Assembly: GCF_025398195.1 (NCBI RefSeq)
Contig: NZ_JAODNV010000010.1
Location: 1 to 64,000 of the forward strand
Direction: 5' to 3'
DNA length: 64,000 nt
From: Chelativorans petroleitrophicus
Lineage (GTDB): Bacteria > Pseudomonadota > Alphaproteobacteria > Rhizobiales > Rhizobiaceae
Translations under genes and position numbers: made by a program
Notes under the pieces: generated by a model
Databases searched by the model: none
Seen by the model: only the letters and a program-made list of their open reading frames with translations
What the model was told of the DNA's origin: nothing
Shown: one piece after another, positions 377 through 25,303 of the stretch
Numbering within the stretch: the stretch's first letter is position 1
How the letters are laid out: the number at the start of each line of letters is the position of its first letter

Positions 377-599
377 GCAACATGGCCTGCGCGCGGTCGC
401 GATGGGCACCAAAAGGAAAGGGGCCGTTCGGCAGATTCCAGCGGCCCCTCGATTCACAGACAAAACATGCATCTGCCACGCCGCCCAAGGGCCGGACAGT
501 CAACGGCGACACGGGTGTTGAGCCGCCCCTCGGGGGAGGTGCTAACAGATTACACGTGCCCTTCCCGGCCCTTGTATCTTTTGGTGTCCTGAAGGAAGG

Positions 600-785: not shown

Positions 786-794
786 CACGCAGGC

Positions 795-2726: not shown

Positions 2727-2816
2727 GCAGCAACCTCCAAGTCAATGCGAAGCATTGCGTGATGGTGCCCGGCAGTGCAAAATCGATACAGTCAAAGATT
2801 TGTCGAATTGGTTGAC

Positions 2817-3827: not shown

Positions 3828-3839
3828 GCGCCGCCACGG

Positions 3840-5039: not shown

Positions 5040-5458
5040 GGCACACACGCTCCCTTGCAACACCATGCGTCGTGCGCCCTGCTTGGACGAGAGGGAATCC
5101 CCTTATAAGTCAACAACTTACAGAGGCGAACCCATGGCACAGCCATCGTGACGCACACGCTTCACCGGCCATCAATACCATGCCTGGAAAACCCCACTCG
5201 GAACGGAAAAAATTCGTTTTACAGCAACTACTTACACGATTCCGATACCATGACCACCCGGGAACGAGGCGCATGGCATCGGCGGCGAGGCATGGCACAG
5301 GGCCGGTTTCGTGCCATCGACTATGCCATGAAAAATTCGTGCTTGGCCATACCCCAGGCTGCCAGTCCGTGCCAGGTGGAAAACACAAAAAAGCCCGCAG
5401 TGACGCGGGCTTAAGTGTGTCTGGTGCCGGATCCTGCCGGCCGCTGCCGGACGCGGAA
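5040..5458. other. Integrase upstream region and right attachment (att) region
   Basis: No gene is visible in these 419 bases between int and guaA. It should hold the int promoter, arm-type binding sites and the junction. Short direct repeats occur: AAAAATTCGT at about 5210 and 5331, ATACCATG twice (about 5175 and 5247), and several GCATGGCA-like words. These could be arm sites, but none is proven. The crossover site most likely overlaps the end of guaA at about 5459-5480 (the codons for the final IEWE and stop). The second att copy was not found in the window. Confidence 0.5.
5387..5412 (-). terminator. Rho-independent terminator facing left, after guaA
   Basis: AAGCCCGC (5391-5398) pairs perfectly with GCGGGCTT (5405-5412) around a six-base loop. 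On the minus strand the stem is followed by a run of six T (5387-5392). It would stop guaA transcription before the integrase. Whether it belongs to the host or came with the element depends on the exact junction. Confidence 0.85.
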
Positions 5459-7021: not shown

Positions 7022-7139
7022 GAAAGGCCTTTAAAGAAGGACGGGCACCGACGCAACGGGTTGGTGAGAAGTTGGCCCTTGTCCTCTGTGTGTTCCGAAC
7101 GCCCGGAAATCCGGTACATGCTTGCCGGGCATCCGGTTC

Positions 7140-8426
7140 TCATTCCGCGCCGCGCTCGAAGCAGGCGAAATAGAACCCATCCGTGCCGGTCATGGCCGGG
7201 GAGAGCACGATGCCGCCATCGATGCGCACGGCACCCGCATGGGCGGGAAAACGTTTGCGCCACTGCGCATCGTGATCAGCAAGGCGGAAGGCGGGATTGC
7301 GCGCAAGGAAGGCTTCCGCCTGCGCGGCGTTTTCCTCTGGGAAGATGGAGCAGGTGACGTAGGCAAGCCGCCCACCCGGCCGCACATAGCGGCTGGCCGC
7401 GTCGAGTATGGCCGACTGCTCGGCGAGCCGCGCCTCCATCTGCTGGCGGGTCAGGCGCCATTTTGCATCCGGGCGCCTGCGCCATGTGCCGGAGCCCGTG
7501 CAAGGCGCATCCACCAGCACGAGGTCCATGCGACCGAGCAGGGGTGCCAGCCGCTCCTCGTCGGCAACCACCTGGACGTTGCGGCAGCCTGCCCGCTTCA
7601 GCCGCTCGAAAATGGGCGCGAGCCTCTGTCTGTCGGCATCATAGGCGTGGATCTGGCCGCGATTATCCATCATGGCGGACATGGCAAGTGTCTTGCCACC
7701 GGCGCCGGCGCAGAAATCGAGAACCTGTTCGCCGGGGGCGGCCCCGGCAAGCTCGGTGACGATCTGGGAGCCCTCGTCCTGCACCTCGAACCAGCCTTTG
7801 CGGAAGGCGGGTTCGGCCTGGACGTTCGGATGCCGCCCATCGCCCGCAACCGGCGCGATGCGCATTCCGGCGGAGGCGATGCGCGAGGCCGCGGCACCGC
7901 ACCGGGCAAGTGCCGCCAGAACCTTTTCCCGCGAGGCCTTCAGCGTATTGGCGCGCATGTCGAGCGGTGGGCGCCCGGAAAGCGCGGCGGCCTCCGCGAT
8001 CCAGTCCGCGCCGAACGCCGCTCTCATCAGCGGCTCGCACCATTCCGGCACGTTGGCGCGCGCGCCTTCGGGAAGGTCTTCGCCAAGGCGTGCGCGAAGG
8101 AGGTTCAGCTCCGTCTCGCTCAGGGGAGGGGGCGCGAAACGGTCGTTCGCAAAGGACGCGTTCAACGTCTCCGGCGCTGTCCCGCTTTCCATAAGAAGGC
8201 CGCCGAAGGCCAGAGCGCGGGGCGTGTCGGAATCGAAGAGCCAGGCCGCGGCGCGCCTGCGGCGCAGCGCGTCATAGACGATATTGCCGATGGCCGCGCG
8301 GTCCCCCGCGCCCGCGAAGCGGTGCGACAGGCCCCAATCGCGCAGGGCGTCCGCCGCTGGGCGGTGGCGCGTTTCAATGTCGTGAAGGATTTCGATGGCT
8401 GCCGAGAGCCTGCCGCCGAGACGCAT
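7140..8426 (-). CDS. rsmB: 16S rRNA (cytosine-C5) methyltransferase, RsmB/NOP family
   Basis: This 428-residue SAM-dependent enzyme methylates a cytosine of 16S rRNA. An N-terminal NusB-like RNA-binding half (to about 170) precedes a Rossmann methyltransferase domain with motif I DFCAGAGGKTLA. Both family cysteines are present: the release cysteine in DAPCTGSGTWRR and the catalytic one in VTCSIFPEEN. An open frame extends 53 codons further upstream, but the ATG at 8426 has AAGGCGG before it and begins the conserved domain. guaA follows 118 bases downstream on the same strand. RsmB itself versus a close RsmF-like paralogue cannot be fully separated by eye. Confidence 0.9.
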   Translation of the reverse strand: MRLGGRLSAAIEILHDIETRHRPAADALRDWGLSHRFAGAGDRAAIGNIVYDALRRRRAAAWLFDSDTPRALAFGGLLMESGTAPETLNASFANDRFAPPPLSETELNLLRARLGEDLPEGARANVPEWCEPLMRAAFGADWIAEAAALSGRPPLDMRANTLKASREKVLAALARCGAAASRIASAGMRIAPVAGDGRHPNVQAEPAFRKGWFEVQDEGSQIVTELAGAAPGEQVLDFCAGAGGKTLAMSAMMDNRGQIHAYDADRQRLAPIFERLKRAGCRNVQVVADEERLAPLLGRMDLVLVDAPCTGSGTWRRRPDAKWRLTRQQMEARLAEQSAILDAASRYVRPGGRLAYVTCSIFPEENAAQAEAFLARNPAFRLADHDAQWRKRFPAHAGAVRIDGGIVLSPAMTGTDGFYFACFERGAE

Positions 8427-8571
8427 GTCCGCCTTTCCGGTTGCCCGTTTGTGCCACTGGCTAACGCGGGGCGGCGCGGGAGGCAAGGCGGAACGGCGGA
8501 GGCCGGGAATTGTTCGCAAGTGTCTGAAGGAACTCTGGCTGGCTGAACGGCAGTTAAGGGGGATTGGTTCG

Positions 8572-8601
8572 CTAGAAATGATCAAAAATGATCATTTCTA
8601 G
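8572..8601. promoter_or_regulatory. Perfect 13-bp inverted repeat, probable operator of the sugar operon
   Basis: CTAGAAATGATCA (8572-8584) and TGATCATTTCTAG (8589-8601) are exact inverted copies around AAAA. A further GATCA pair (GCGATCAG and TTGATCAA) sits at 8671-8690 across the start of the regulator gene. The AT-rich palindrome lies between divergent genes rsmB and the DeoR-type regulator and lacks a U-run suited to termination. It is the natural binding site for the regulator at 8682, by position; the binding itself is inferred. Confidence 0.7.
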
Positions 8602-8681
8602 ACCTTCTGGTGAACTGAATTGACAAGTATCCAGCTTCGCTGATAATCATCTTCCACAAAGTTGAAAGAAAGCGATCAGAA

Positions 8682-10430
8682 TTGATCAAAACTGCCAGAG
8701 ACTTGCGAATTCTTGATCTCCTCGACCAGCGGGGCGTCGTCTCCGTGCGGGAACTGGTGAGCCAGTTTCCGGAGGTTTCGGCGGTCACGATAAGGCGGGA
8801 TCTGGTCCGGCTGGAACGCGAGGGCAAACTCCGGCGCACCCGCGGCGGGGCCGTCCGGATTTCGGCCGCAACCCAGGGGGAGGCCGGGAAGGACAAGCCC
8901 GGCGCGCAGGAGCACGACAGCTTCGATGTTCTCGTTCTGCCGCCGGTCAAGGGCGAGTGGGCCCATACGCTCCGGCAGCAGGCGATCCGGCGCGGCACGC
9001 TTCTGATCGCGGAATCGGCGCCCCAACTCGGCGGCGTCTATCTGGGACCGCGCAACCGCGATGCCTCGCGCGAACTGGGCAGGCTTGCGGCGCGCCAGCA
9101 GGCCGAGGCGGGCCTGGAGCGCGCGGAGGTTCTGCTGGTTGCCCTGGAGGGGCAGCAGAACACGCGCGAGCGGCTGGACGGCTTCCGCGAGGGCTTCGAG
9201 GCGGAATTTCCAGGCAAGCTGCTCTTTCATCGGGTCGACGGGCGCGGGCTTCTGAAGGAAGCCGTTCGCCAGACCGTCATCGCCTTCGAGGCGCATCCTA
9301 CGATCAACATCGTGTTCGGCGTCAACGATCACACGATCCTGGGCGCCCTCGAAGTGGCCGAGCGCCTTGGCATCGATGTGGCAGGATATTCCGTCGGCGG
9401 CGAGGGCGGCGTCTTTTTCGACAAGCTGGTGCCCGGAGGTCAGCTTAAGGCGGTGCTGGCGCTTTTCCCTGAGGTGGTCGGGCGGGCGGCCGTCGATGTG
9501 GCCTGCGCCTATCTGGACGGCGGGGAGATCGCTTCCGAAGTGATCACGCCGGCCAAAATCCTGACCGCCGAGAACATCGGCAAATTCTACCACAAGCAGG
9601 ACGGGCACTGGCGCATCCTGCCCTCCGCGCTCGAGGCCATGGCGGCACCCTTCGCCTATCAGGGCAGGGGGGCGAAGGGGCGATCCATCGGCTTCATCCT
9701 GCAATATCCTTCGCACGAATGGTACCGGGGCCTTGCCGCCGCCATGCGGCAGCGCGCGCTGGAAGTGGGGGCCGAGCTCGTCACGCGGAACGCCGAAGAC
9801 GAGGTGGCCGAGGAGCTGCGCCTGATAAAGCGCCGCATCGGCGAGGGCGCGGCGGAGGTCGTCAATCCGGGCGACGTGCTGCTGATCGACGGCGGGGAGT
9901 CCTCGCGCTACTTCGCGGAGGCGCTGCGCCGGCGCGGCTGCCCCGTGAACGTCTACACCAACTCGCTAGACGTGCTCGAGATTCTCTCAGGCGCGCCGGG
10001 CGTCTCGGTTTTCCTGACCGGCGGCGAATATCGCCCCTCCACGCGCACGCTTGTGGGACCCAGCGTGGGAACGCTTCTGGAAACGATCCGGGTGGATGCC
10101 GCGGTGATCTCGCCGGACGGCGTGGCGCCGAATTTCGGCATCTCCTTCGAGGACGAGCGTTCGGCACTGGTGTGCAAGCGGTTCTGTTCGACCGCGCGTC
10201 AGGTCATCGTTCTGGCCGACCACGGCGCGATCGCGCTTGAATCGAGTGTTCAGGCCTGCCGTCTGGCGGCGAACCAGTTCATTTTCACCGATGCGGGGGC
10301 GCTCTCCGCCCATCGCCTCGAACTGTCGGCGGCCGGTCCGCAAGTCTTCGTCGTCGATCAGGACGACGATTTCGAAACCGGCCTGCGGCGCGACTCCAGG
10401 CAAACGGCAAGTCCAAACCAAGGGAGGTAG
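8682..10430 (+). CDS. DeoR-type regulator with inserted sugar-binding-protein domain
   Basis: The 582-residue protein starts with a DeoR helix-turn-helix (residues 1-60; VSVRELVSQFPEVSAVTIRRDL and KLRRTRGGAV). A periplasmic-binding-protein-like domain follows (about 80-335; FGVNDHTILGALEVAERLGID, DKLVPGGQLKAVLALFPE). The C-terminal part (about 345-560) is a DeoR sensor domain: VLLIDGGESSRYFAEAL, FLTGGEYRPSTRTLVGP and VIVLADHGAI. So a DeoR repressor appears split by a sugar-binding module. It probably controls the downstream transport and catabolic genes in response to a sugar or sugar phosphate, binding the palindrome at 8572-8601. The start is a TTG; no ATG is available before the HTH. It lacks a signal peptide, as expected for a cytoplasmic protein. 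Confidence 0.85.
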   Translation: MIKTARDLRILDLLDQRGVVSVRELVSQFPEVSAVTIRRDLVRLEREGKLRRTRGGAVRISAATQGEAGKDKPGAQEHDSFDVLVLPPVKGEWAHTLRQQAIRRGTLLIAESAPQLGGVYLGPRNRDASRELGRLAARQQAEAGLERAEVLLVALEGQQNTRERLDGFREGFEAEFPGKLLFHRVDGRGLLKEAVRQTVIAFEAHPTINIVFGVNDHTILGALEVAERLGIDVAGYSVGGEGGVFFDKLVPGGQLKAVLALFPEVVGRAAVDVACAYLDGGEIASEVITPAKILTAENIGKFYHKQDGHWRILPSALEAMAAPFAYQGRGAKGRSIGFILQYPSHEWYRGLAAAMRQRALEVGAELVTRNAEDEVAEELRLIKRRIGEGAAEVVNPGDVLLIDGGESSRYFAEALRRRGCPVNVYTNSLDVLEILSGAPGVSVFLTGGEYRPSTRTLVGPSVGTLLETIRVDAAVISPDGVAPNFGISFEDERSALVCKRFCSTARQVIVLADHGAIALESSVQACRLAANQFIFTDAGALSAHRLELSAAGPQVFVVDQDDDFETGLRRDSRQTASPNQGR

Positions 10431-10432
10431 TA

Positions 10433-11662
10433 ATGCCCAAACTCAAAACATTGCTGGCGACCAGCGCATTGACGATGGCGGGGGTGCTCGCGGTAGCAAG
10501 CGCCGCCAGCGCGCAAACGGTGCTGCGCTTCTGGGACAACCAGCAGACCGAATCCGGTCTGTCGAAGTTCCAGCAGGAAGCGGTGAAGCGCTTCGAGGAA
10601 GAGAATCCGGACATCAAGGTTGAGGTGACCACCATACCCTATCCGGAATATCAGCAGCGTCTGCTGACGGCAGTGCAGGCCGGAAACGGCCCAGACGTTT
10701 CGACCGTCGACCAGATCTGGAACGCCGCCTTCGCGGAGGCGGGCGCCATCGTGGCTGTCGACGATCTGGTGGCCGGTTCGAGCATTTCGCCGGAGGATTT
10801 CTTCCCCGGCGCCTGGGAGTCGGTGACCTATCAGGGCAAGACCTGGGGCGTTCCGTTCAATGTGGACGTCTGGTTCTTCGCCTTTGTGAACAAGGCCCTG
10901 TTCGAGGAGGCTGGCATCGATCCCGCTTCCATCACGACGTGGGAAGGACTAGAAGCCGCGGCACCCGCGCTCACCGATCCTGCGAACGGCAGGTTTGCGA
11001 TCGGACTCACCGGCAACAAGAGCGAGTATCCGGTCGTCATGACCAACTCGATGATCTACTCGAACGGTGGCGTCGTGCTGGACGAAAATGGCAAGTGCGC
11101 CCTGACCAGCCCCGAGGCCATCGAGGCGCTCGAATACTACAAGCGCATGACGCAGTATGCTCCCTCCGGCATCCTCAACGCCGCGAACGAGCAGATGCGC
11201 GAGCTCTTCCTCAACGGCACGCTTGCCATCGAGCTCTGGCCCGCTCTGGAGCAGCCGGCGCTCGATTCCTCGAACATCGACTGGGATCTCTATGCGGGCT
11301 TCGCGCCTGAAGGGAAAACGCCCGTCGGCACCTTCGGCGGCTGGAACCTCGTGGTCTACGAAAGCTCGCCAAACAAGGAGGCGGCCTGGAAGTTCATCGA
11401 GTTCATGACGCGGGAAGACGTGAACGGCGATGTGGTCGATCTCATCCCGGCCAACGTCAAGGCGGCGTCGGCCTTCCTCGAGGAGAACCGCCGCAAGCCG
11501 GACGTGATCCTGGAGCACCTCAACAACGCCAAGCCGCGCCCGCTGTCGCCGCAGTATCTGCAGGTCTCCGAGATTCAGCAGAACATGGTGCAGCAGATGC
11601 TGTCCGGCACGCCCGTGGAGGAAGCTGCCGCGGCCGCCTGCGAGGCGATCGACAATCTCTAA
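10433..11662 (+). CDS. ABC transporter sugar-binding protein (CUT1 type)
   Basis: This 409-residue extracellular solute-binding protein of family 1 delivers its ligand to the permeases encoded downstream. A signal peptide ends in ASAASAQT near residue 25, and the mature start VLRFWDNQQTESGLSKFQQEAVKRFEEENPDIKV is typical of sugar-binding proteins. GKTWGVPFNVDVWFFAFVNKALFEEAGIDP is the usual hinge-side segment. The ATG follows GGGAGG by five bases, a strong site, and lies two bases after the regulator stop. The ligand cannot be told from the sequence. Confidence 0.92.
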   Translation: MPKLKTLLATSALTMAGVLAVASAASAQTVLRFWDNQQTESGLSKFQQEAVKRFEEENPDIKVEVTTIPYPEYQQRLLTAVQAGNGPDVSTVDQIWNAAFAEAGAIVAVDDLVAGSSISPEDFFPGAWESVTYQGKTWGVPFNVDVWFFAFVNKALFEEAGIDPASITTWEGLEAAAPALTDPANGRFAIGLTGNKSEYPVVMTNSMIYSNGGVVLDENGKCALTSPEAIEALEYYKRMTQYAPSGILNAANEQMRELFLNGTLAIELWPALEQPALDSSNIDWDLYAGFAPEGKTPVGTFGGWNLVVYESSPNKEAAWKFIEFMTREDVNGDVVDLIPANVKAASAFLEENRRKPDVILEHLNNAKPRPLSPQYLQVSEIQQNMVQQMLSGTPVEEAAAAACEAIDNL

Positions 11663-11677
11663 CGGGCTGCCGGCCCC

Positions 11678-11745
11678 GGCCGCGGTGAGCCGCGGCCTCG
11701 GTTTCGTGAACGAGAGCCTTGCCCGCGGGCCGATGGCCTGCGGGC
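11678..11745 (+). promoter_or_regulatory. Two strong mRNA hairpins between binding-protein and permease genes
   Basis: GGCCGCGG (11678-11685) pairs with CCGCGGCC (11690-11697). A second stem of 11 bp, with one G-U pair, joins 11721-11731 to 11735-11745 across a GAT loop. Neither is followed by a U-run. Hairpins at this point in sugar ABC operons are known to protect the binding-protein mRNA and to lower permease expression, giving an excess of binding protein. Confidence 0.75.
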
Positions 11746-11771
11746 GGGCGGAAGAACCGGTTTCTTTCAAG

Positions 11772-12671
11772 ATGTCGCAACGCAAACGCCGAACCAGCGA
11801 AATGTGGATGGCCTACGGCTTCATGATGCCGGCGGCGATTCTCGTGGCCGTGCTCATGTACTGGCCCATGATCGCGACGGTTCGTGAAAGCCTGTTCACC
11901 ACCTCTTTCATCAACCCGAAGCCCCAGTTCGTGGGCCTGAAGGTCTATGCCGACATCTTTTCCGATCCTGTCTTCTGGCAGGTTGTGCGCAATTCCATCG
12001 TATGGACCCTGGGTGTCGTTCTGCTGCAGAACGTACTGGGCTTCTTCATCGCGCTTCTGCTCAACCAGCATCTGCCCGGGCAGGGCATTCTCCGGTCGCT
12101 GATCCTTCTGCCCTGGGTGCTGCCGGGCGTAGTGGCGGCGATCCTGTGGCGGTTCATGTATGATCCCCAACTGGGGCTCATCAATTCTTTCGTGCTGCGG
12201 TTCGGCCTTGCCGACCGGGGCATTGCGTGGCTCGCCGATCCCTCCATCGCCATGGCGGCGGTCATCTTCGTCGCCTTCTGGAAGGGCTTTCCCTTCTCGA
12301 CCGTGATCTTTCTTGCCGCTCTCCAGAACGTCGATCAGGAGCAGATCGAGGCCGCGAAGGTGGACGGGGCGGGACCCGTCCGGCGTTTGTTCGACGTCAT
12401 CATCCCGGCGATCATTCCGGTGGCGGTCGTCAATTTCCTGCTGACGACGATCCTCACCTTCAACTATTTCGACATCATCTACGTGCTGACGCGCGGTGGA
12501 CCGCTCAACAGCACGGCGATCTTCCCCACACAGATCTACGAGATCGGCTTCGGCCAGTTCCGCTTCGGCGAGGCGGCCGCCTACGGAACCCTATCCGTGG
12601 TCATCCTGGTGATGATCGTGGCCGTCTTCATGCTGATCCGGCGTCCGCTTCTGTCGCACAGGGAGGTTTGA
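11772..12671 (+). CDS. Sugar ABC transporter permease, MalF-like
   Basis: This 299-residue inner-membrane protein is the first of two permeases. It begins MSQRKRRTSEMWMAYGFMMPAAIL, a short cytoplasmic end and then the first helix, with about six helices in all. The EAA loop that contacts the ATPase is visible as EAAKVDGAGPVRRLFDVIIPAIIP. The open frame extends further upstream through the hairpins, but the ATG at 11772 begins the conserved part. Its ribosome binding site is poor, which fits lower expression than the binding protein. Confidence 0.92.
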   Translation: MSQRKRRTSEMWMAYGFMMPAAILVAVLMYWPMIATVRESLFTTSFINPKPQFVGLKVYADIFSDPVFWQVVRNSIVWTLGVVLLQNVLGFFIALLLNQHLPGQGILRSLILLPWVLPGVVAAILWRFMYDPQLGLINSFVLRFGLADRGIAWLADPSIAMAAVIFVAFWKGFPFSTVIFLAALQNVDQEQIEAAKVDGAGPVRRLFDVIIPAIIPVAVVNFLLTTILTFNYFDIIYVLTRGGPLNSTAIFPTQIYEIGFGQFRFGEAAAYGTLSVVILVMIVAVFMLIRRPLLSHREV

Positions 12672-12674
12672 GCG

Positions 12675-13499
12675 ATGACCAAGCGCATTCGCTATCCGCT
12701 GCTTCTGTGCCTGCAGCTTGTGACGGCAACGCTGGTGCTGCTGCCGTTCTTCTGGATGTTCAGCGTCTCCCTGAAGCCGGCGACGGAGCCCTTTGCGATT
12801 CCGGCGCAGCTCTGGCCTGACAATCCGACCCTGGAAAACTACATCCTCGCGCTCAGGCCAGAGTTCCAGCGCTATTTCCTCAACAGCGTCATCGTGTGCG
12901 GCGCGACGTTGCTGATCACGATTCCGCTGGCGCTTCTTGCGGCCTACAGCCTGTCGCGTTTCCAGTTCCGGCTTCTGTCCGTCTTCCTCGGGGCGGTGGT
13001 CCTCGCGCAGTTCTTCCCGGCGGGCGCCATGATCATCCCGCTCTACAAGATCGTGCGGTCGGCCAACCTGCTCAACACCTATCTCGGGCTGATCATCGCC
13101 TACATCACCGTGACGCTTCCCGTGGCGATCTGGATGCTGCGCGGCTTCCTGCTCAAGGTGCCCAAGACGCTGGAGGAGGCGGCGGCCGTTGACGGCGCTT
13201 CGCCGCTGCGCGCCTTCTTCGACATCGTGGTGCCGCTGGCGAGGCCGGGGATCATCGCCACTTCCGTTTTCGTGCTCATCGTCACCTGGCAGGAATTCCT
13301 GTTTGCGCTCTCGTTTACCTCCAGCAAGGAGATGCGCACCCTGCCGGTGGGCATGAACGACTATATCGGCCAGTACGGCATCCGCTACGGCGAGCTGATG
13401 GCCTCGTCGGTGATGATCTCCCTGCCGGTGATCGCGATCTTCTTCTTCCTGCAACGGCAATTCGTGGCCGGCCTGACCGCCGGCGCGGTCAAGGGCTGA
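12675..13499 (+). CDS. Sugar ABC transporter permease, MalG-like
   Basis: The second permease of the CUT1 transporter has 274 residues. The family pattern is clear: an N-terminal helix and the motif PFFWMFSVSLKP, then WPDNPTLENY, several membrane helices, and the EAA loop EAAAVDGASPLRAFFDIVVPLARPG. It starts three bases after the previous stop, with GGGAGG upstream of its ATG. It pairs with the permease before it and the ATPase at 16146. Confidence 0.93.
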   Translation: MTKRIRYPLLLCLQLVTATLVLLPFFWMFSVSLKPATEPFAIPAQLWPDNPTLENYILALRPEFQRYFLNSVIVCGATLLITIPLALLAAYSLSRFQFRLLSVFLGAVVLAQFFPAGAMIIPLYKIVRSANLLNTYLGLIIAYITVTLPVAIWMLRGFLLKVPKTLEEAAAVDGASPLRAFFDIVVPLARPGIIATSVFVLIVTWQEFLFALSFTSSKEMRTLPVGMNDYIGQYGIRYGELMASSVMISLPVIAIFFFLQRQFVAGLTAGAVKG

Positions 13500-13510
13500 G
13501 GAGAATCTCC

Positions 13511-14293
13511 ATGGCATCGCTCGTACTCCTGGACAGGCCCGAAAGCGGCATCGCGGTGATGACGCTCAACCGGCCGGACAAGCTCAACGCGCTCTCCGAG
13601 GACATGCTCGACCAGATCGGCGCGCAGCTCGATACGGTGGAGAACGATCCCTCGATCCGCGTCCTGATCCTCACCGGTGCCGGAGAGAAGGCGTTCGCGG
13701 CAGGTGCCGACATCGCCGAATACCAGGGCGGCAGGCACGATGCGTTCAGGGCGTTCCAGCTCAAGGGGCGGCGGGTGAACGATCGCCTGGAAGCCCTGCG
13801 CGTGCCAACGATCGCCGCCGTGAACGGCTATGCGCTGGGAGGCGGCTTCGAGATTGCGCTTTGCTGCGATCTGATCGTCGTCTCCACCACCGCCCGGCTC
13901 GGCTTGCCCGAGGGGCTGCTCGGTCTTTCGCCGGGCGGAGGTGGCACGCAGCGGCTCTTGCGCTCGCTCGGGCGCCATGCCACGGCCGAACTGCTTCTGA
14001 CCGCTTGGCGCATGAAGGGTGAAAGGGCCTATGCGCTGGGGCTTGCCGCCGCTCTTTGCGAGCCGGATCAGCTCATGGAGACGGCGCTGGAAAAGGCGCG
14101 CGCCATGCTGAAACTCGCGCCGCAGGCGCTCACCGAAATGAAACGGCTGATCAGGGAAGGGGCCGACTGTTCCCTTCCGGCCGCCCTGTCGCTGGAGCAG
14201 GAGGCGTTGCTGCGCCTTTACGGCACGCAGGACGGGCAGGAGGGCATCAACGCCTTCCTCGAGAAACGCAGCCCTCAATTCAAGGGAGTCTGA
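13511..14293 (+). CDS. Enoyl-CoA hydratase/isomerase family protein
   Basis: This 260-residue crotonase-fold protein has both oxyanion-hole segments, AFAAGADIAEY (about 59-69) and NGYALGGGFEIALCCD (about 103-118). One catalytic glutamate candidate is in GGGFE and the second in LPEGLLGLSPGGGGTQRL, so a hydratase rather than a mere binding protein is likely. Such enzymes act on CoA thioesters. That is unexpected inside a sugar-transport operon, but a CoA-transferase gene is present at 19318. It has GAGGAGAA upstream and is 11 bases from the permease gene. The substrate is unknown. Confidence 0.9.
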   Translation: MASLVLLDRPESGIAVMTLNRPDKLNALSEDMLDQIGAQLDTVENDPSIRVLILTGAGEKAFAAGADIAEYQGGRHDAFRAFQLKGRRVNDRLEALRVPTIAAVNGYALGGGFEIALCCDLIVVSTTARLGLPEGLLGLSPGGGGTQRLLRSLGRHATAELLLTAWRMKGERAYALGLAAALCEPDQLMETALEKARAMLKLAPQALTEMKRLIREGADCSLPAALSLEQEALLRLYGTQDGQEGINAFLEKRSPQFKGV

Positions 14294-14296
14294 ACC

Positions 14297-15064
14297 GTGG
14301 AATTCAAAGACCGAGTGGCGATCGTAACCGGTGGCGCAATGGGCATCGGCCGGGCCTGTGCCGTCAAGTTTGCGCAGGCGGGCGCGCGCGTCGCGATTGC
14401 CGATTTCGACAGTGAGGCGGGCGAGAAGACGGCCGCCGAAATACGCGAAAGCGGCGGGGATGTGATCTTTCACAAGACGGACGTGCGCAGCTTCGCCGAG
14501 GTGGAGGCCTGCACGGAGGCCGTCATCCAGAAATGGGGCCGGATCGACATCCTGGTGAACAACGCGGCACGCGCGATCGGCGGCGTCGTGGATGAGATCG
14601 ACGAGGATTCCTGGAACGAGGTGATCTCGAACAATCTCACCTCGGTGTGGCGGTTCATGCGCTGCGTGGTTCCGCATATGCGGCGGGCCGGAAAAGGCAG
14701 CATCGTCAACATGAGTTCGGTGCAGTCTCTGAAAGGCTTCCACGGCTGGGCGGCTTATGCCGCGGCCAAGGGAGGCATCAACGCTCTGACGCAACAGACG
14801 GCGCTGGAGCTTGCCCCGGCGGGTATCCGCGTGAACGCGGTCGCGCCCGGCACGATCATGACGCCCCTGAACGAGAAGGTTTTCCGTGAGGCGGCCGATC
14901 CGGACGATCTGATCCGCCGCTGGAACGAAGCCCATCCCCTTGGCCGGTTCGGCGAGGCGGACGAAGTGGCCGAGGCGGTGCTTTTCCTGGCCAGCGACAG
15001 GGCGTCCTTCATCACAGGCGACATTGTTCGGGTCGATGGCGGACTGGTGGTGAAAGGTGACTGA
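14297..15064 (+). CDS. Short-chain dehydrogenase/reductase (SDR)
   Basis: A classical SDR of 255 residues. The cofactor motif TGGAMGIG is near residue 11, the acidic residue after strand 2 (ADFDSE) suggests NAD(H) rather than NADP(H), and NNAA is at about 90. The catalytic serine in NMSSVQS and the tyrosine and lysine in YAAAK are present, as is PGTIMTPL. It may oxidise a sugar or a hydroxyacyl intermediate. It starts at GTG 14297, three bases after the hydratase gene, and overlaps the next gene by eight bases. Confidence 0.93.
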   Translation: MEFKDRVAIVTGGAMGIGRACAVKFAQAGARVAIADFDSEAGEKTAAEIRESGGDVIFHKTDVRSFAEVEACTEAVIQKWGRIDILVNNAARAIGGVVDEIDEDSWNEVISNNLTSVWRFMRCVVPHMRRAGKGSIVNMSSVQSLKGFHGWAAYAAAKGGINALTQQTALELAPAGIRVNAVAPGTIMTPLNEKVFREAADPDDLIRRWNEAHPLGRFGEADEVAEAVLFLASDRASFITGDIVRVDGGLVVKGD

Positions 15065-16142
15065 ACGTTCGAGACTCGCCGTCGAAGGCATCGCGCTCGA
15101 CGTCGAGCACCGATGCGGAATTCTGAGCGGCCTCAAGATCCAATACGGCGGAAAGACAATCACGCCGCTGCACCGGGCGCCGTGGGTGGACGCCGATGAC
15201 GAGACTCCGCCGGATGCCCCGCCGCATCTGAGGCGGCTCGCCGGAGATTTCTTCTGCGCGCCCTTCGGCGCCTCGGACCCAGCGGTTCCGCCGCATGGCT
15301 GGGCGGCCAACGGGCTGTGGACGGAGCGCGAGCGGCAGACGCCGAAGGGCGGCGGCCTCAGCGTGACGTTCGAGCTGGACGAGACGATCTCGGGCGCCCG
15401 TCTTGAAAAGACCATCGCTCTCCTGCCTGGCCACCCGGTCGTCTATCAGACGCACGTCTTTCGGGGCGGCAGCGGGCAGGTTTCCGTCTCGCATCACGCC
15501 ATGATCCACGTTCCCGGGGGAGCGCGGCTGTCATTCTCACGAAAGGCGATGGGCGCGACGCCGCCTGAGCCGCTTGACGACGGGGAGGGGGTGGCCAGAT
15601 CGCTGCTCGCCTATCCGCAGCGTTTCGAAAGCCTCGCTTCGGTCGGCCTTTCCAATGGCGGGAGCGCCGATATCCACACCTATCCCTTCGCTGAGGGGCA
15701 TGAGGATTTCCTCACCCTCTACGAGGAGGCGGGAGAGGGGCCGGGATGGTCGGCGGCGGTTGCGGCGGCGGACGGCTTCATCTTCTTCGCACTCAAGGAC
15801 CGCGCCGCGCTGCCGCAGACAGCGTTGTGGATGAGCAATGGTGGGCGGCAGTCCGCGCCCTGGAACGGGCGGCACCGGCACGTGCTGGGCATCGAGGAGG
15901 GCTGTTCGGATTTCGCGCTCGACGCCGAGGCGCTCGGCAAGGCCGGGCAGCGCGCCGCCCTTGCTCTCGATCCGGCGAGGCCCACGGTGGTCCGCTACGC
16001 TCTCGGGGCCATTCCCATAGTCGAGGGCTTCCGCGAGGTGGCGGCCGTTGAGATGGCCGACGACCGGCTTGAACTTGTGGATGTCGGAGGGCGGCGCGAG
16101 GCCGTGCCTTTCGACGGGCGTTTCTTTTTCCGGGAAATGTAA
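15057..16142 (+). CDS. Unknown protein, possibly mutarotase-like
   Basis: I do not firmly recognise this 361-residue protein. It is rich in beta-strand-like stretches, has no signal peptide or membrane segment, and has features reminiscent of the galactose-mutarotase fold: GGKTITPLHRAPWV near the start, PPHGWAANGLWTE, then SHHAMIHVPGG and SNGGRQSAPWNGRHRHVLGIEEGC. The paired His in VSHHAMIH and the late Glu in GIEEGC could be the acid/base pair of aldose 1-epimerases. In this operon a sugar epimerase next to a dehydrogenase and a lactonase would make sense, but this is inference. It starts at GTG inside the SDR stop region, so translation is coupled. Confidence 0.75.
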   Translation: MTERSRLAVEGIALDVEHRCGILSGLKIQYGGKTITPLHRAPWVDADDETPPDAPPHLRRLAGDFFCAPFGASDPAVPPHGWAANGLWTERERQTPKGGGLSVTFELDETISGARLEKTIALLPGHPVVYQTHVFRGGSGQVSVSHHAMIHVPGGARLSFSRKAMGATPPEPLDDGEGVARSLLAYPQRFESLASVGLSNGGSADIHTYPFAEGHEDFLTLYEEAGEGPGWSAAVAAADGFIFFALKDRAALPQTALWMSNGGRQSAPWNGRHRHVLGIEEGCSDFALDAEALGKAGQRAALALDPARPTVVRYALGAIPIVEGFREVAAVEMADDRLELVDVGGRREAVPFDGRFFFREM

Positions 16143-16145
16143 GCC

Positions 16146-17201
16146 ATGGCTCCCGTGACACTGAATTCGATCACCAAGCGCTGGGGCACCTTCGTCGCCG
16201 TGGACAGCATTTCGCTGGACATCGCGGATGGCGAATTCCTCGTCCTGCTTGGACCTTCCGGATGCGGCAAGTCGACCACCATGCGCATGGTGGCCGGTCT
16301 GGATGAGCCGACGAGCGGCGAAGTGCTGATCGGCGGAAAGGTCGTCAACGACCTGCCGCCCGGCGCGCGCGATCTGGCCATGGTGTTCCAGAACTACGGG
16401 CTCTACCCGCACATGACGATCGCGCAGAACATCGGTTATCCGCTCAAGGTGGCGCGCGTGCCGAAGGCGGAGCGGGAACGCCGCGTGCGGGAGGCTGCCG
16501 AGCGGGTGGAGCTTGCCGGGCTGCTCGACCGCAAACCGAGCGCGCTTTCGGGCGGGCAGCGCCAGCGCGTGGCCCTTGCACGGGCCATCGTGCGCACGCC
16601 GCAGCTCTTTCTCATGGACGAGCCGCTTTCCAATCTGGACGCCAAGCTGAGGGTGTCGATGCGCGCCCAGCTCAAGCACCTGCAGCGAGAGCTCGGGACG
16701 ACGACGATCTACGTCACCCACGACCAGGTGGAGGCGATGACCATGGCCGACCGGGTGGCGGTGATGCGCGACGGCCGGCTGCAGCAGGTGGGCGCGCCGC
16801 TAGAGATCTACAACCGGCCGGCCAATGCGTTCGTCGCCGGATTCCTCGGAAACCCCTCGATGAACCTCATCGAAGTGGACGTGTCGGATGGCCGCGTCCG
16901 CCATCCGCGCTTCTCGATCGAGGCGCGGGACGTTCGGCTGTCCGGGCCGGCAATCCTGGGGCAAAGGCCGGAGGACATGTCGGTCGTCAATAGCGGCGAG
17001 GGGGATTTCGACGGCGAGGTCTATACGGCCGAGCTTCTCGGCGACAGCGTACTCGTCACGACCAGACTGGGCGACGAGCTCATCGCCGTGAAGGCCGACA
17101 AGTCGATTTCCGTGAGCATGGGAGAGAAGGTCGGATTCCGCTTCGGCAGGAGTGCGCTGCATTTCTTCTCCCGCGAGACGGGCGAACGCATCGGCGAATG
17201 A
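16146..17201 (+). CDS. Sugar ABC transporter ATPase (MalK/UgpC type)
   Basis: This 351-residue ATPase powers the CUT1 transporter encoded at 10433-13499. Visible motifs are Walker A GPSGCGKST, Q-loop FQNYGLYPHMT, signature LSGGQRQRVALARAIV, Walker B LFLMDEPLSNLD and H-loop VTHDQVEAMT. The C-terminal third (from about 240) is a TOBE/OB regulatory domain with the typical GQRPEDM. It begins four bases after the previous gene. Confidence 0.96.
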   Translation: MAPVTLNSITKRWGTFVAVDSISLDIADGEFLVLLGPSGCGKSTTMRMVAGLDEPTSGEVLIGGKVVNDLPPGARDLAMVFQNYGLYPHMTIAQNIGYPLKVARVPKAERERRVREAAERVELAGLLDRKPSALSGGQRQRVALARAIVRTPQLFLMDEPLSNLDAKLRVSMRAQLKHLQRELGTTTIYVTHDQVEAMTMADRVAVMRDGRLQQVGAPLEIYNRPANAFVAGFLGNPSMNLIEVDVSDGRVRHPRFSIEARDVRLSGPAILGQRPEDMSVVNSGEGDFDGEVYTAELLGDSVLVTTRLGDELIAVKADKSISVSMGEKVGFRFGRSALHFFSRETGERIGE

Positions 17202-17217
17202 TTGAGGAAGGCGTCAC

Positions 17218-18129
17218 ATGACGAGATCACCCTTTACACATGAGGACCCGGCTGTGCTGCCGCTCGACCGTGTGTCGGTGTTCTTCGACGGCCAGTACTC
17301 CGATCCCCGCCTGCATCATCCCGAGGGGGTGGCCGTGGCGGCGGACGGCTCCGTCTGGTGCGGCAATGCGGAAGGGGACATCGTGCGCATCGACCCGCGC
17401 ACGGGAGCCATAGAGCGCCTGGCGACGACGGGCGGCTTCACGCTCGGGCTGGCCTTCGAGGGCGACGCGAATCTTTACGTCTGTGACCAGAAGAGCGCCG
17501 CCGTCTGGCGTCTTCATCTCTCCGACCGCTCGCTGACGCGCTTTACCGCGCCCGGAATACGCATACCGAACTATCCGGTGGTCGATCCGCACCGCAACTG
17601 CCTCTACGTTTCCGACAGCTTCGGCGCAGGGGCGGCCGGTCCGGGCGTGTGGCGCTACGACCTTTCGAGCGGGGAGGGCGAGCTCTGGTGGCGCGAGCCG
17701 ATGCAGTTTGCGAACGGCATGGCGCTCTCGGAGGACGGCAGGACGCTGTATGTGGTCGAAACCTTCGGGCGGAAGGTGAGCCGCATCGAAATCGGGCCGG
17801 ACGGCCTGCCCGCGGGGATCGGCGTGGCGGCGGAAAACCTACCGGGCCTTCCCGACGGCATCGCGCTCGACGAGCGGGGCGATCTGTTCGTCTCTTGCTA
17901 CGAGCCGTCCCGCATCCTCCGGATCGATAGGTCGGGCAGGCTGGACGTCTATGTCGAGGACCCGGAGGCACATCTGCTGTGCCATCCGACCAACATCGCC
18001 TTCGACGGAAAAACGCTTTACGCGGCCAATCTCGGCCGCTGGCACATCGCCAGCATCGAAACCGATACCAGCGCGCCGCCTCTGGCGGCGATGGTCGGCA
18101 TCCACATGAAAAAGGGAGCATCGTCTTGA
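17218..18129 (+). CDS. SMP-30/gluconolactonase family protein
   Basis: This 303-residue six-bladed propeller protein probably hydrolyses a sugar lactone. The family start LHHPEGVAVAADGSVWCGNAEGDIVRID contains the metal-ligand glutamate, and NGMALSEDGRTLYVVET and LPDGIALDERGDLFVSC hold the later Asn and Asp ligands. A dehydrogenase (14297) plus a lactonase suggests oxidation of a sugar to an aldonic acid. The start lies 16 bases after the ATPase gene with GAGGAAGG upstream. It overlaps the next start by four bases. Confidence 0.9.
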   Translation: MTRSPFTHEDPAVLPLDRVSVFFDGQYSDPRLHHPEGVAVAADGSVWCGNAEGDIVRIDPRTGAIERLATTGGFTLGLAFEGDANLYVCDQKSAAVWRLHLSDRSLTRFTAPGIRIPNYPVVDPHRNCLYVSDSFGAGAAGPGVWRYDLSSGEGELWWREPMQFANGMALSEDGRTLYVVETFGRKVSRIEIGPDGLPAGIGVAAENLPGLPDGIALDERGDLFVSCYEPSRILRIDRSGRLDVYVEDPEAHLLCHPTNIAFDGKTLYAANLGRWHIASIETDTSAPPLAAMVGIHMKKGASS

Positions 18130-19316
18130 CCGTCCGTCTGCGCGGCATCACCTGGGATCACTCGCGCGGCTTCGACCCGCTTGCGCGGAACGTTGCCCGC
18201 TTCACCGCCCGTCATCCGCACATCGAGGTCGAATGGAGCCGGCGGAGCCTGCGCGATTTTGGCGTTCAGCCGGTGGAGGAACTGGCGGAGCAGTTCGACC
18301 TTCTGGTGATCGATCATCCCTTCACCGGGCGGGCGCATGCGCTCGGTTGCCTGCGCGATCTGAAACCGCTCTTTCCCGCCGCGTTCCATGCCATGCTCAA
18401 TCGGGAAAGCGTCGGCCCGTCCACGCGCTCCTATGACTACGCGGGCAGCATCTATGCCCTGCCGACGGACGCGGCGGCGCAGGTGGCAAGCTACCGTCCC
18501 GACCTGCTCGACCGGCTCGGACGGGAGGCGCCGCCCCGCACCTTCGCGGAGGTTCTGGAGCTCGGACACGCGGCGCGGGCGGCCGGGCTTTGGTTGGCCA
18601 TGCCCTCCTGCCAAAGCGATGCGGCCTGCCTCGTCGCCACCCTTTCGGCCAATCTCGGACATCCGATCCAGCCTTGGTCGGACCGGCTGCTGGCGCCCCA
18701 TGTCTTTGACGCGGTGCTCGATTACCTGCGCCAACTCGCGGAGCTCTCGCATCCGCTCTCGCGCGACTGGAACCCGATCGCGACCTATGACGCGATGTCG
18801 AGCGGAGACGAGATCGTCTACGTTCCCTTCGCCTTCGGCTATACCAACTACTCGCGGCAGGGCGTGGCAAAGCCTCTGATTTATACGAATATAGCCGGGC
18901 CGGGTCCCGACCCCGCGGCCGGCACTATCCTGGGCGGGGCGGGATGCGCGATTTCGGCCCGCTGCCGCGAGGTCGAAGCCGCGGTGGAATATCTGAGCTG
19001 GGTGCACCAACCGGAGCACCAGGCGGGGGACTACTATCGCGAAGGCGGTCAGCCCGGACTGCGCAGCGCCTGGCTCGATCCGGAGGCGAACGCCGACTGC
19101 CGCAACTTCTTCACCGGCACTCTGGAAAGCATGGACAAGGCCTATCTGCGCCCGCGCTTCGACGGGTTCATCCCGGCTTTCGAGCATATGGGCGAGCTTG
19201 TCCATGAATGGCTCAAGAACGGCGGCGACAAGGCGTCGCTTATCCGGGAAGCAAACGACACCTATGCGCGGGCGAGCGAGAAGGCCGCCCGCAGGCTACT
19301 TATGGAAAAGGACTGA
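18126..19316 (+). CDS. Solute-binding-protein-like protein without a signal peptide
   Basis: This 396-residue protein has the sequence character of an extracellular sugar-binding protein (ITWDHSRGFDPL, then ARFTARHPHIEVEW, later GAGCAISARCREVEAAVEYLSW), but from its TTG start it goes straight into the mature domain, with no hydrophobic leader. The TTG overlaps the stop of the lactonase gene (TTGA). The open frame reaches further upstream only through the lactonase gene and offers no signal peptide there. It may therefore stay in the cytoplasm, perhaps as a ligand carrier or sensor, or may be a repurposed family member. It is the second such protein in this operon; its partner is unknown. Confidence 0.85.
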   Translation: MTVRLRGITWDHSRGFDPLARNVARFTARHPHIEVEWSRRSLRDFGVQPVEELAEQFDLLVIDHPFTGRAHALGCLRDLKPLFPAAFHAMLNRESVGPSTRSYDYAGSIYALPTDAAAQVASYRPDLLDRLGREAPPRTFAEVLELGHAARAAGLWLAMPSCQSDAACLVATLSANLGHPIQPWSDRLLAPHVFDAVLDYLRQLAELSHPLSRDWNPIATYDAMSSGDEIVYVPFAFGYTNYSRQGVAKPLIYTNIAGPGPDPAAGTILGGAGCAISARCREVEAAVEYLSWVHQPEHQAGDYYREGGQPGLRSAWLDPEANADCRNFFTGTLESMDKAYLRPRFDGFIPAFEHMGELVHEWLKNGGDKASLIREANDTYARASEKAARRLLMEKD

Positions 19317-19317
19317 C

Positions 19318-20520
19318 ATGCCCAAGGCACTCGAAGACGTAACCGTTCTGGACTTCAGCCATCTGCTGCAGGGGCCGTTCGCGACCCAGCTTCTTGGCGA
19401 TATGGGCGCGCGCATCATCAAGGTGGAGCGGCCCGGGCAGGGCGACCTGTTCCGCACCATGACGTTCAAGAACCGCTGGGTGGGCGGGACGGAAAGCCCC
19501 AATTTCCTGGCCTGGAACCGCAACAAGCAATCCATAGCCATCGACCTGAAGGCGCCCGAGGCTAAGGAGGTGCTTTTCAAGATCGCGGAGAAGGTGGATG
19601 TCGTCATCCAGAATTTCCGCCCCGGCGTGATGGAGCGGCTGGGCTATGGCTATGAGGCTTTCAAGAAGGTCAATCCCCGCATCATTTACTGCTCGGGCTC
19701 CGGCTATGGCGAAAGCGGCCCATATGTGACCCGGCCGGGCCAGGACATGCTGCTGCAGGGCCTGACGGGACTGGCCGCCGCGACCGGCAGGCGGGACGGT
19801 CCGCCGGTGCCGGTGGGCGCGGGGTTCGCCGATCAGATAGGCGCCATGAACATGGTCTACGGCATTCTGAGCGCGCTCTACTGGCGCGAGCGCTCCGGCA
19901 AGGGGCAGGAGATCAAGGTGGATCTTCTCTCCGCCCTGTTGCAGCACCAGAACCAGGAGATGGTCTGGGTCATGAACTTCGGGGAGAATCTGGAGCGCCC
20001 CAATTCCTCGATCGGCCATCCCGGCATGGACGCGCCCTTCGGGCTCTATCCCGTCAAGGACGGATGGGTCTCGATCGCGATGAGCCCGTACCGCAAGCTG
20101 GTGGATGTGCTGGGAGCGCCCGATCTGCTCGTCTATGACGATCCGGAGACGCTTTATGTGAAGCGCGACGAGATTTGGGAGAAGCTTGCGGAAGAGACGC
20201 GCAAGTGGACCAAGGCCGATCTTCTGGAGGCGCTGCTGGCCGCCGACATCTGGTGCGGCGAGATCAAGACACACCTCGACGTCATGGACGATCCGCAGGT
20301 GCGCCATATGGGTCTCGTCACGAGCTACGAGCATCCGCGCGCGGGCACGGTCAAGGTGATCGGGCCCGCCGTGAAGATGAGCGAGACGCCGCCCGAGATC
20401 GCGCGCCCGGCGCCGATCGTCGGCCAGCACACGGAGGAAATCCTGCGCGACTTCGGCTTCTCCGAGGAAATGATCGCCAGCCTTCGCGAGCGCGGCATCA
20501 TCGAGCAGGGCGAAGCCTGA
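19318..20520 (+). CDS. CaiB/BaiF family CoA-transferase
   Basis: A class III CoA-transferase of 400 residues. LDFSHLLQGPFATQLLGDMGARIIKVERPGQGD is the family N-terminus; the catalytic aspartate is in GQDMLLQGLTGLAAATG (about 142-158). These enzymes move CoA between carboxylic acids through an aspartyl anhydride. Here it could activate a carboxylic acid formed in the pathway for the hydratase at 13511. The ATG follows the preceding stop by one base; the open frame upstream of it is shadow. Confidence 0.93.
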   Translation: MPKALEDVTVLDFSHLLQGPFATQLLGDMGARIIKVERPGQGDLFRTMTFKNRWVGGTESPNFLAWNRNKQSIAIDLKAPEAKEVLFKIAEKVDVVIQNFRPGVMERLGYGYEAFKKVNPRIIYCSGSGYGESGPYVTRPGQDMLLQGLTGLAAATGRRDGPPVPVGAGFADQIGAMNMVYGILSALYWRERSGKGQEIKVDLLSALLQHQNQEMVWVMNFGENLERPNSSIGHPGMDAPFGLYPVKDGWVSIAMSPYRKLVDVLGAPDLLVYDDPETLYVKRDEIWEKLAEETRKWTKADLLEALLAADIWCGEIKTHLDVMDDPQVRHMGLVTSYEHPRAGTVKVIGPAVKMSETPPEIARPAPIVGQHTEEILRDFGFSEEMIASLRERGIIEQGEA

Positions 20521-21456
20521 ATGCCGGGGCCGGTGGCGGCGGGCGGCGCGCACAGGGGCGGGCGCATCTTCTTCTGCGGCTCGGCCACGTGGGACACGAT
20601 CTACCGCGTCGAGCGGATGCCGGCCGGACCGGGCAAGGTCCTGCCGACGGCCATGGTGGAGATTGCCCACGGCATGGCGGCAAGCGCAGCCGCCACCGCG
20701 GCCAGGCTGGGTGGCAGTGCGTCCCTCATCTCGCGCATCGGATCGGATGCGGTGGGCGCCCGGATCATTGCCGATCTGGAACAAGCAGGCGTCGATTGCC
20801 GCCACGTGCGGACCTTCGAGGGTGTCGGCTCGCCGCTTTCCACCGTGATCGTAGACGCGGAAGGCGAGCGGCTGGTCGTGCCGTTCTATCCGCCCGGACT
20901 GGGCAGGGAGACCGGCTGGCTGCCGCTCGAGGAGATCCGCACGGCGAGTGCCGTGCTCGTGGACATCCGCTGGCCGGAAGGGGCGGCGGCCGTGCTCGAT
21001 GCCGCGCGGGAGGCGGACATACCGCGCGTTCTCGATGCAGATGTGGGCGAGCCCTCCGTGATCGCTGCGCTTACCGAAAGGGCAAGCCACGCCGTCTTCT
21101 CCGAGCCTGCTGCGCTGGCGGTCAGTGGAGCCTCCAACGTGCCCGAGGCGGTTCGGTCACTGGCTTCGCGGTTCTCATGCTTCGTCGCCGTCACGGCGGG
21201 CGGCGAAGGGTGTTTCTGGATGGACGAGGCGGGCGAAATCTGCCAGGAGCGGCCGCCTCGGATCAAGGCCGTCGATACGCTTGCGGCGGGTGACGTGTTC
21301 CATGGCGCATTCGTCCTCGGTCTTACCGAGGGCATGCCGGTGCGGCAGCTCATCCGTTTCGCCAACGCGGCGGCCGCCCTGAAATGCACGGTATTCGGCG
21401 GCCGTGCGGGAACCCCGTCGCGCGATCAGGTGGAGGCGGCACTGGCGGCGGTTTAA
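20521..21456 (+). CDS. PfkB-family sugar kinase
   Basis: This 311-residue kinase has the ribokinase fold: FFCGSATWDTIYRVERMP at the start, GMAASAAATAARLGG, and the C-terminal signature DTLAAGDVFHGAF with the catalytic Asp and anion hole. The endings ALKCTVFGGRAGTPS and the VDIRW and VFSEPAALA segments recall, from memory, the sulfofructose kinase YihV more than ribokinase, so a modified hexose or keto-acid substrate is conceivable. It is the last gene of the operon and begins directly after the CoA-transferase stop codon. Confidence 0.88.
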   Translation: MPGPVAAGGAHRGGRIFFCGSATWDTIYRVERMPAGPGKVLPTAMVEIAHGMAASAAATAARLGGSASLISRIGSDAVGARIIADLEQAGVDCRHVRTFEGVGSPLSTVIVDAEGERLVVPFYPPGLGRETGWLPLEEIRTASAVLVDIRWPEGAAAVLDAAREADIPRVLDADVGEPSVIAALTERASHAVFSEPAALAVSGASNVPEAVRSLASRFSCFVAVTAGGEGCFWMDEAGEICQERPPRIKAVDTLAAGDVFHGAFVLGLTEGMPVRQLIRFANAAAALKCTVFGGRAGTPSRDQVEAALAAV

Positions 21457-23790: not shown

Positions 23791-24006
23791 AGCCAAGCCT
23801 CCGTTTTTCTGTCGTAGCGGCCGAGGTTCGCCCGGAAGGCGGTCCCGCATTTCGGCCGACGTTAGCATTGCCGCCGGGGCGGCGGTCAAGAATGTTGCCC
23901 GCCATTCTAGGCCGTTGCGCGCCGCCATGCCCGCGCCAGCATCGGGTGTGCAACTGGGCCAGACCGGCGGCATGAAGCCGCAGAGCCGGGGCGGCCCTAG
24001 CGGCAG

Positions 24007-25182: not shown

Positions 25183-25303
25183 GGCGGCAGCAGGTTCCTT
25201 GGGTGCTGACACGGGAAGCGATTTCCGGGGCAGTGTAGTGAAACATCATGGCCCTAGCCTTGTTTCGTCCGGAAAACAACCGCTCGAAGCAGGAGAACGG
25301 GCC

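Follow-up and report, generated by a model that had tools for sequence, protein, structure and literature searches.

The first 64,000 nucleotides of contig NZ_JAODNV010000010.1 of Chelativorans petroleitrophicus (assembly GCF_025398195.1, 3.96 Mb; hereafter the window) carry 12 consecutive genes on the forward strand (8682–21456) that combine sugar catabolism with CoA-thioester chemistry. A first-pass annotation had named a CUT1 transporter, dehydrogenase, lactonase, mutarotase-like protein, PfkB kinase, CoA-transferase and enoyl-CoA hydratase in this region. All are present, and all received a Pfam or NCBIfam family except the mutarotase-like protein, which alone matched neither. Its gene list omitted the most informative gene, which encodes a putatively cytoplasmic solute-binding protein (SBP) at 18126–19316, here called SBP2. 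The new element, as read from sequence, is a conserved module of a cytoplasmic SBP, a class III CoA-transferase (CoAT) and a hydratase in sugar operons of several phyla. We tentatively propose a two-component enzyme type in which SBP2, joined by a second such protein (SBP3) in many Bacteroidota, would hand a sugar acid to a dedicated class III CoAT clade. Such a CoA-thioester branch of carbohydrate breakdown would occur in Pseudomonadota, Bacteroidota, Bacillota, Acidobacteriota, Chloroflexota and Verrucomicrobiota. The possibility that the operon is a one-off curiosity was rejected, as SBP2 loci with the recurring module come from seven phyla.

SBP2 matches SBP_bac_8 and SBP_bac_1 weakly (E 1e-9 and 7e-8), and its AlphaFold2 model (predicted local distance difference test (pLDDT) 97.1) adopts a full-length sugar-SBP fold, with 6dtq as the best Foldseek match and 5iai as the best by VIA Z (39.2; root-mean-square deviation 2.9 over 375). 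The likeness to the SBPs of CUT1 importers (MalE3 6dtq, SmoF 7ofy, 5iai) thus extends over the full length at Z about 38–39 and 15–18% identity. In contrast to these, SBP2 has no signal peptide, lies beside an enzyme gene and also occurs in loci without ABC permeases in view. Its sequence opens directly at the first strand of the fold. Across its relatives, where the lack of a signal peptide in SBP2 and SBP3 was judged by reading frames and N-termini, the first core motif in 68/126 loci is preceded by an in-frame stop no more than 22 codons away, which leaves no space for a signal peptide. Among the 56 longer frames, a crude criterion found a hydrophobic upstream stretch in one (L107), with 2/126 loci unclassed. 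We infer that SBP2 lacks a CUT1-type export signal and is cytoplasmic. Six plasmid records annotate such proteins as "extracellular solute-binding protein", a label that may hide the family. Conservation is high: 35 residues are invariant among 44 sequences that are 35–45% identical to the window's SBP2, including W10, H12, R14, D58, D63, H64, D115, Y239, Y242, Q309, W316 and R342, although H64 and Y239 are merely near-invariant in another set of 28. At E ≤ 0.001, 97/297 genomes of the order contain relatives, many of the weaker matches resembling ordinary SBPs; within the window's genus, SBP2 occurs in 10/16 genomes. A family profile run across GTDB genomes identified, among the matches listed, 576 of 595 candidate stretches as relatives. 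One locus (L087, 10001–12318) carries two tandem SBP2 genes, the stop of the first lying only at its end.

We compared 133 SBP2 loci (numbered L here), comprising 40 from the window's order, 80 from named genomes (drawn from the GTDB profile scan, among the matches listed) and 13 from plasmids, with at least one place represented twice (L046/L097). A class III CoAT lies within 10 kb of SBP2 in 111/133 loci and adjoins it on the same strand (≤300 bp) in 92, downstream in 71 and upstream in 21. In 106/133 loci, a CoAT is accompanied by a crotonase or MaoC hydratase. By comparison, none of 30 ordinary SBP_bac_1 genes, a seven-genome set that includes the importer SBP of the window, had a CoAT, MaoC or crotonase-type enoyl-CoA hydratase (ECH) gene within 1.5 kb. 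A CoAT within 10 kb was found in Bacteroidota (35/37), Bacillota (10/10), named Pseudomonadota (16/17), Chloroflexota (4/5), Verrucomicrobiota (1/1) and Thermodesulfobacteriota (1/1), in plasmid loci (12/13) and in loci whose phylum was not resolved (30/42, 40 of these 42 being from the window's order); the module was thin in Acidobacteriota (2/7). An ABC permease occurs within 10 kb in 66/133 loci. This frequency and the full-length SBP fold would suit an importer SBP of the usual kind whose signal peptide was overlooked, or a relic, with the neighboring CoAT a coincidence. We regard this explanation as very improbable given the close in-frame stops (68/126), the single hydrophobic stretch among 56 longer frames and the absence of CoAT from the neighborhoods of all 30 control SBPs. 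Furthermore, the window operon already encodes an importer SBP whose N-terminus resembles a signal peptide, and 38/39 Bacteroidota loci (37 named loci plus L081 and L084) show no ABC permease in view, the exception being L159, with a permease on the opposite strand at a distance of 7.9 kb.

The window CoAT (19318–20520) begins 1 bp after the end of SBP2 and is a full-length CoA_transf_3 protein (E 3e-105; 352.9 bits against a cut-off of 23.3). Its D172, shared by ≥95% of the CoATs in the alignment, is taken to be the catalytic Asp equivalent to Asp169 of formyl-CoA transferase. The protein scored below the curated NCBIfam cut-offs of all seven listed equivalogs (best 240 against 442 bits), which included formyl-CoA, succinate-glutarate, mesaconate and carnitine CoA-transferases. 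A tree made by a quick method from 73 rows, chosen from 162 of suitable length and including several long branches (paralogs), grouped 65/66 CoATs from SBP2 loci in a single branch (SH-aLRT 99) that excludes the window genome's seven other CoATs, the only outside rows. This branch includes a window-type group, A, and a large one, B. The 66th CoAT, off the main branch, is separated from its SBP2 by 8.9 kb. Tree distances had raised the idea that SBP2 recruited CoATs several times independently; it was dropped since 65/66 join one branch. In four loci (L102, L115, L122, L130), tandem CoATs downstream of SBP2 share one frame and score about twice a single domain, as apparent CoAT–CoAT fusions. 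The window itself holds a second class III CoA-transferase in a 401-aa open frame on the reverse strand (24007–25212), 34% identical to the operon CoAT and behind an omega-aminotransferase gene (22462–23973). The crotonase-family ECH of the operon (13511–14293; ECH_1 E 5e-62, 210 bits) retains E114 and E134, presumably the two catalytic Glu of crotonases, and both are invariant in all 34 ECHs from the window and SBP2 loci. Among 97 MaoC hits, a D-x-x-P-H-H motif is kept in 70 and varied in 26.

SBP2 loci fall into four operon types. Six CUT1 operons orthologous to that of the window (type (a): L041, L042, L044, L077, L082, L229) jointly keep the importer SBP (SBP1), permeases, ECH, the short-chain dehydrogenase (SDR), ATPase, SBP2 and CoAT. 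The earlier suggestion that sugar and CoA genes belong together is thereby borne out through the co-conservation of ECH, SDR, CoAT and importer. The lactonase is missing in L041, and the mutarotase-like gene occurs only in L082 and L229 within this type, as well as in several operons with a CUT2 importer. PfkB and the mutarotase-like protein are not constant. Among ten further places in the window's genus, only L229 has the window-type operon, with CoAT 74% and SDR 68% identical. Its SBP2 is only 34% identical to the window's and lies on the other side of CoAT; judged by sequence, it differs or was exchanged, yet was not dropped.

In type (b), the enzymes of type (a) occur beside a CUT2 importer (L053, L097, L139, L144, L149, L150, L163, L232–L235). 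SDR, CoAT, ECH and lactonase accompany this importer in L233–L235, and L232 is alike with no ECH listed. Most type (b) operons add a family I CoA-transferase (PF01144), none being shown in L235. Large proteins of this family (~590 aa), unrelated to class III, are encoded in L053 (16526–18298), L092 (8238–9998) and L096 (14818–16572). The L096 stretch (1–16600, Ammoniphilus resinae) sets two kinds of cluster side by side, one with SDR, lactonase, a LacI-type regulator, CoAT, an acyl-CoA ligase, SBP2, ECH and MR_MLE, and then one with SBP2, CoAT and MaoC. Type (c) joins Gfo/Idh-MaoC, a RhaM-like mutarotase, an MR/MLE protein and a CUT1 importer (e.g. L083, L168, L171, L173), with an amidohydrolase also present in L083 and L171. 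Type (d), of Bacteroidota and marine representatives, has SBP2-CoAT-CoAT-SBP3-Gfo/Idh-MaoC with an MFS or RhaT symporter and often GH78 or GH2, or alternatively SBP2-CoAT-CoAT-ECH-aldehyde dehydrogenase, often with GH2. The order SBP2-CoAT-CoAT-SBP3 is seen in L081 and L084. At least two CoAT hits were present in 34/39 Bacteroidota loci and the SBP3 motif in 26/39. SBP3 appears to be a second cytoplasmic SBP, its N-termini likewise being without a signal peptide. It was counted by an N-terminal motif read by eye, since the profile matched SBP2 too, and the motif misses members (L081, L137 and L157 hold SBP3-like genes by clustering). The 31 loci with the motif all have a CoAT, 30 an adjacent SBP2-CoAT pair, 30 Gfo/Idh, 29 MaoC and none ECH.

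The CoA cycle on sugar acids is proposed because the usual partners of SBP2 are a CoAT and a hydratase, in operons that otherwise appear built for oxidizing sugars to acids, and by analogy with CaiB, CaiC and CaiD. In the cai system of Escherichia coli and Proteus, the class III CoAT CaiB, the CoA ligase CaiC and the crotonase CaiD act together; the crotonase (de)hydrates a CoA ester, and the transferase shuttles CoA between product and substrate, according to the consulted part of the source (PMC2131755). The window operon similarly pairs a class III CoA-transferase with a crotonase in one cluster, and a homologue of the CaiC-like AMP-dependent acyl-CoA ligase of L096 occurs near SBP2 in 4/133 loci. 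The systems differ in that the substrate here would, by context, be a sugar acid and in that a cytoplasmic SBP adjoins the transferase. Neither an acyl-CoA dehydrogenase (CaiA) nor a CaiT-type transporter is among the 12 genes. Scores against the L-carnitine CoA-transferase equivalog (125.5 bits, cut-off 413) and the crotonobetainyl-CoA hydratase equivalog (ECH, 147.6 bits, cut-off 500) were low, and CaiB is a weak match for the window CoAT (E 3e-22, against 8e-65 for succinate-hydroxymethylglutarate CoA-transferase).

We consider it plausible, if somewhat short of an even chance, that the operon encodes an oxidative route for sugars that includes a CoA-thioester loop in which SBP2 is the acid-binding partner of CoAT. 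A sugar would enter through the CUT1 importer and its anomers would equilibrate, the SDR would oxidize it at C1, and the SMP-30 lactonase would hydrolyze the lactone to an aldonic acid. CoAT together with SBP2 would put CoA on this acid. The crotonase, or MaoC elsewhere, would then remove water at C2–C3, after which CoA would pass to the next acid in a CaiB/CaiD-like manner; the AMP-dependent CoA ligase, in the four loci that have it, may prime the cycle as CaiC would. The loop would yield a 2-keto-3-deoxy acid or a tautomer of it, which PfkB, in operons that have this kinase, could phosphorylate before a KDPG-type aldolase from outside the operon splits it (the KDPG-aldolase family has two matches in the genome). 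SBP2 itself would be a sugar-binding protein of the transport type that was co-opted for a cytoplasmic role, either as an acid-binding subunit of the transferase or as a presenter for it. The earlier scheme, from sugar to lactone, acid, CoA thioester and (de)hydration, fits, but phosphorylation by PfkB is not constant; the first-pass interpretation is supported in part.

Pathways of the De Ley-Doudoroff or sulfo-Entner-Doudoroff type use a C1 dehydrogenase, a lactonase, possibly a kinase and a KDPG-type aldolase. Compared with these, the dehydratase step in the window would be replaced or supplemented by CoAT, SBP2 and the crotonase. A sulfoquinovose pathway was rejected, as sulfoquinovosidase, sulfo-sugar aldolase and monooxygenase are absent from the 12 genes and the PfkB protein is closer to 2rbc than to sulfofructose kinase. 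No defining gene of another named pathway was found among the 12 either.

Several observations weigh against the proposed CoA-thioester loop. PfkB is not conserved and, within type (a), was found only in L041 and, away from the operon, in L042. The genome holds six IlvD/EDD genes, so ordinary dehydratases are available. The dehydration direction is assumed from the carnitine analogy, and hydration is the alternative. A UxuA or MR_MLE dehydratase lies within 2.5 kb of SBP2 in 12/111 CoAT loci, and the module is thus not a simple replacement of sugar-acid dehydratases. No SBP2–CoAT fusion was found among 46 loci (L041–L086) in a shared-frame test. Finally, 22 loci had no CoAT within 10 kb. Eleven of these were set aside because the fetched stretch was too short; for four of the CUT2 loci concerned (among L045–L049, L051 and L052), apparent absence was discarded as an artefact of fetched length, since longer stretches of L046, L048, L049 and L051 show a CoAT downstream in the same gene row, ~6 kb on. 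The other eleven comprise one with a CoAT at 11.2 kb (L062), five for which the view on one side stops short of 10 kb (L065, L076, L079, L106, L151) and five viewed for ~10 kb on both sides (L070, L086, L088, L093, L155). From these eleven loci, SBP2 seems able to work without CoAT. UxuA or MR_MLE genes lie within 2.5 kb in 3/11 of them and are not significantly commoner there than in CoAT loci (p 0.14; 122/133 loci, the 11 short ones dropped); CoAT plus ECH as a strict substitute for these dehydratases was accordingly abandoned.

The retention of SBP2 in loci without CoAT, three of them beside UxuA or MR_MLE, together with conservation that is strong for an SBP (the 35 residues invariant across 44 sequences), is what an enzyme might show. 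SBP folds have become enzymes in cyclohexadienyl dehydratase and MqnA, and SBP2 could be an SBP fold turned sugar-acid lyase or isomerase, with CoAT and hydratase acting on its substrate or product. This reading is somewhat unlikely, as each of the 50 nearest structures listed is a plain sugar-binding protein or a fusion containing one, matched over the full length at Z about 35–39. The frequent same-strand adjacency of SBP2 and CoAT (92/133) further argues that SBP2 acts with the transferase.

The closest precedent that we found, a CoA-bound route for deoxyribonate, was proposed for Klebsiella michiganensis (Price et al. 2019, PMC6365646); the consulted part of the source lists a CoA synthetase, a hydroxyacyl-CoA dehydrogenase, a thiolase, a CoA-transferase and a lactonase. 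Common to both are a sugar acid carried as a CoA thioester (putatively so in the window), a CoA-transferase and a lactonase; in place of the synthetase, hydroxyacyl-CoA dehydrogenase and thiolase, the window has a hydratase and SBP2, neither a hydratase nor an SBP being named for the K. michiganensis cluster in that part of the source. By this precedent, a 2-deoxy sugar acid could be converted to a CoA ester and oxidized at C3, and its cleavage would release acetyl-CoA and leave a shorter acyl-CoA; the SDR does match many 3-oxoacyl reductases. We judge such cleavage unlikely here. Thiolase, CoA synthetase and beta-keto acid cleavage enzymes are absent from the 12 genes, neither thiolase nor cleavage enzymes appear among the annotated recurrent neighbor families (many neighbors being unannotated), and the usual partner is a hydratase, not a thiolase. 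Alternatively, the CoA genes could act on a sugar conjugate by degrading its acyl or aglycone part while the remaining genes handle the sugar, in line with the GH78, GH2 or esterase genes beside some Bacteroidota loci. This appears quite unlikely, since the window's 12 genes include no glycosidase or esterase, the module lies beside varied glycosidases and also where none is recognized, and the hydratase and CoAT genes are interleaved with the sugar genes.

Co-transcription of the 12 genes is presumed from their spacing, which is 0–22 bp or overlapping with mechanically assigned open reading frame starts (true starts may lie slightly later, e.g. in the first permease). A possible sigma-70 promoter upstream of the first gene (TTGACA-16-GATAAT, 8620–8647, forward strand, 11/12 matches) is weak, with one site found against 1.4 expected in shuffles. 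The first gene (8682–10430) encodes a regulator with HTH_DeoR, Peripla_BP_4 (profile positions 56–257, then a weak match to 1–55, E 0.2) and DeoRC, apparently a DeoR type with a circularly permuted RbsB-type sensor inside. Its Shinella homologue (L082) shows the same order, HTH, Peripla_BP_4 from profile position 57 and DeoRC. Next come SBP1, the CUT1 solute-binding protein (10433–11662; SBP_bac_1 E 9e-49; N-terminus signal-peptide-like by eye), CUT1 permeases A (11685–12671) and B (12675–13499) and, after ECH, the glucose-1-dehydrogenase-like SDR (14297–15064). The 361-aa mutarotase-like protein (15057–16142) owes its label to the best Foldseek matches, galactose mutarotases, of a low-confidence model (pLDDT 50.7) and to H80, H147 and E280, invariant in seven sequences; the model was too poor to serve as stand-alone evidence. 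A UgpC/MalK-type ATPase (16146–17201) precedes the SMP-30/gluconolactonase-family lactonase (17218–18129), whose stop shares TTGA (18126–18129) with the TTG start of SBP2. The optional PfkB sugar kinase (20521–21456) closes the row.

The first-pass annotation knew of no described pathway with this gene set. This stands for the pair, no description of SBP2 with CoAT or of named aldonyl-CoA esters having been found in the consulted parts of the open-licence PMC literature (subscription papers lie mostly outside that scope), nor any mention of such a module for sugars in the consulted part of the GapMind paper (PMC9007349). It does not stand for sugar-acid CoA thioesters as such, which had already been proposed for deoxyribonate. 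The recurrence of the SBP2-CoAT pair suggests an undescribed CoA-thioester mode of sugar breakdown. If this is true, a CoA-thioester route would join the textbook oxidative sugar pathways, and "extracellular solute-binding protein" annotations of proteins that are really cytoplasmic would be accounted for. It would also give a function to a CoA-transferase clade of soil, plant-associated and marine polysaccharide-degrading bacteria, and a case of a transport protein that has become an enzyme subunit.

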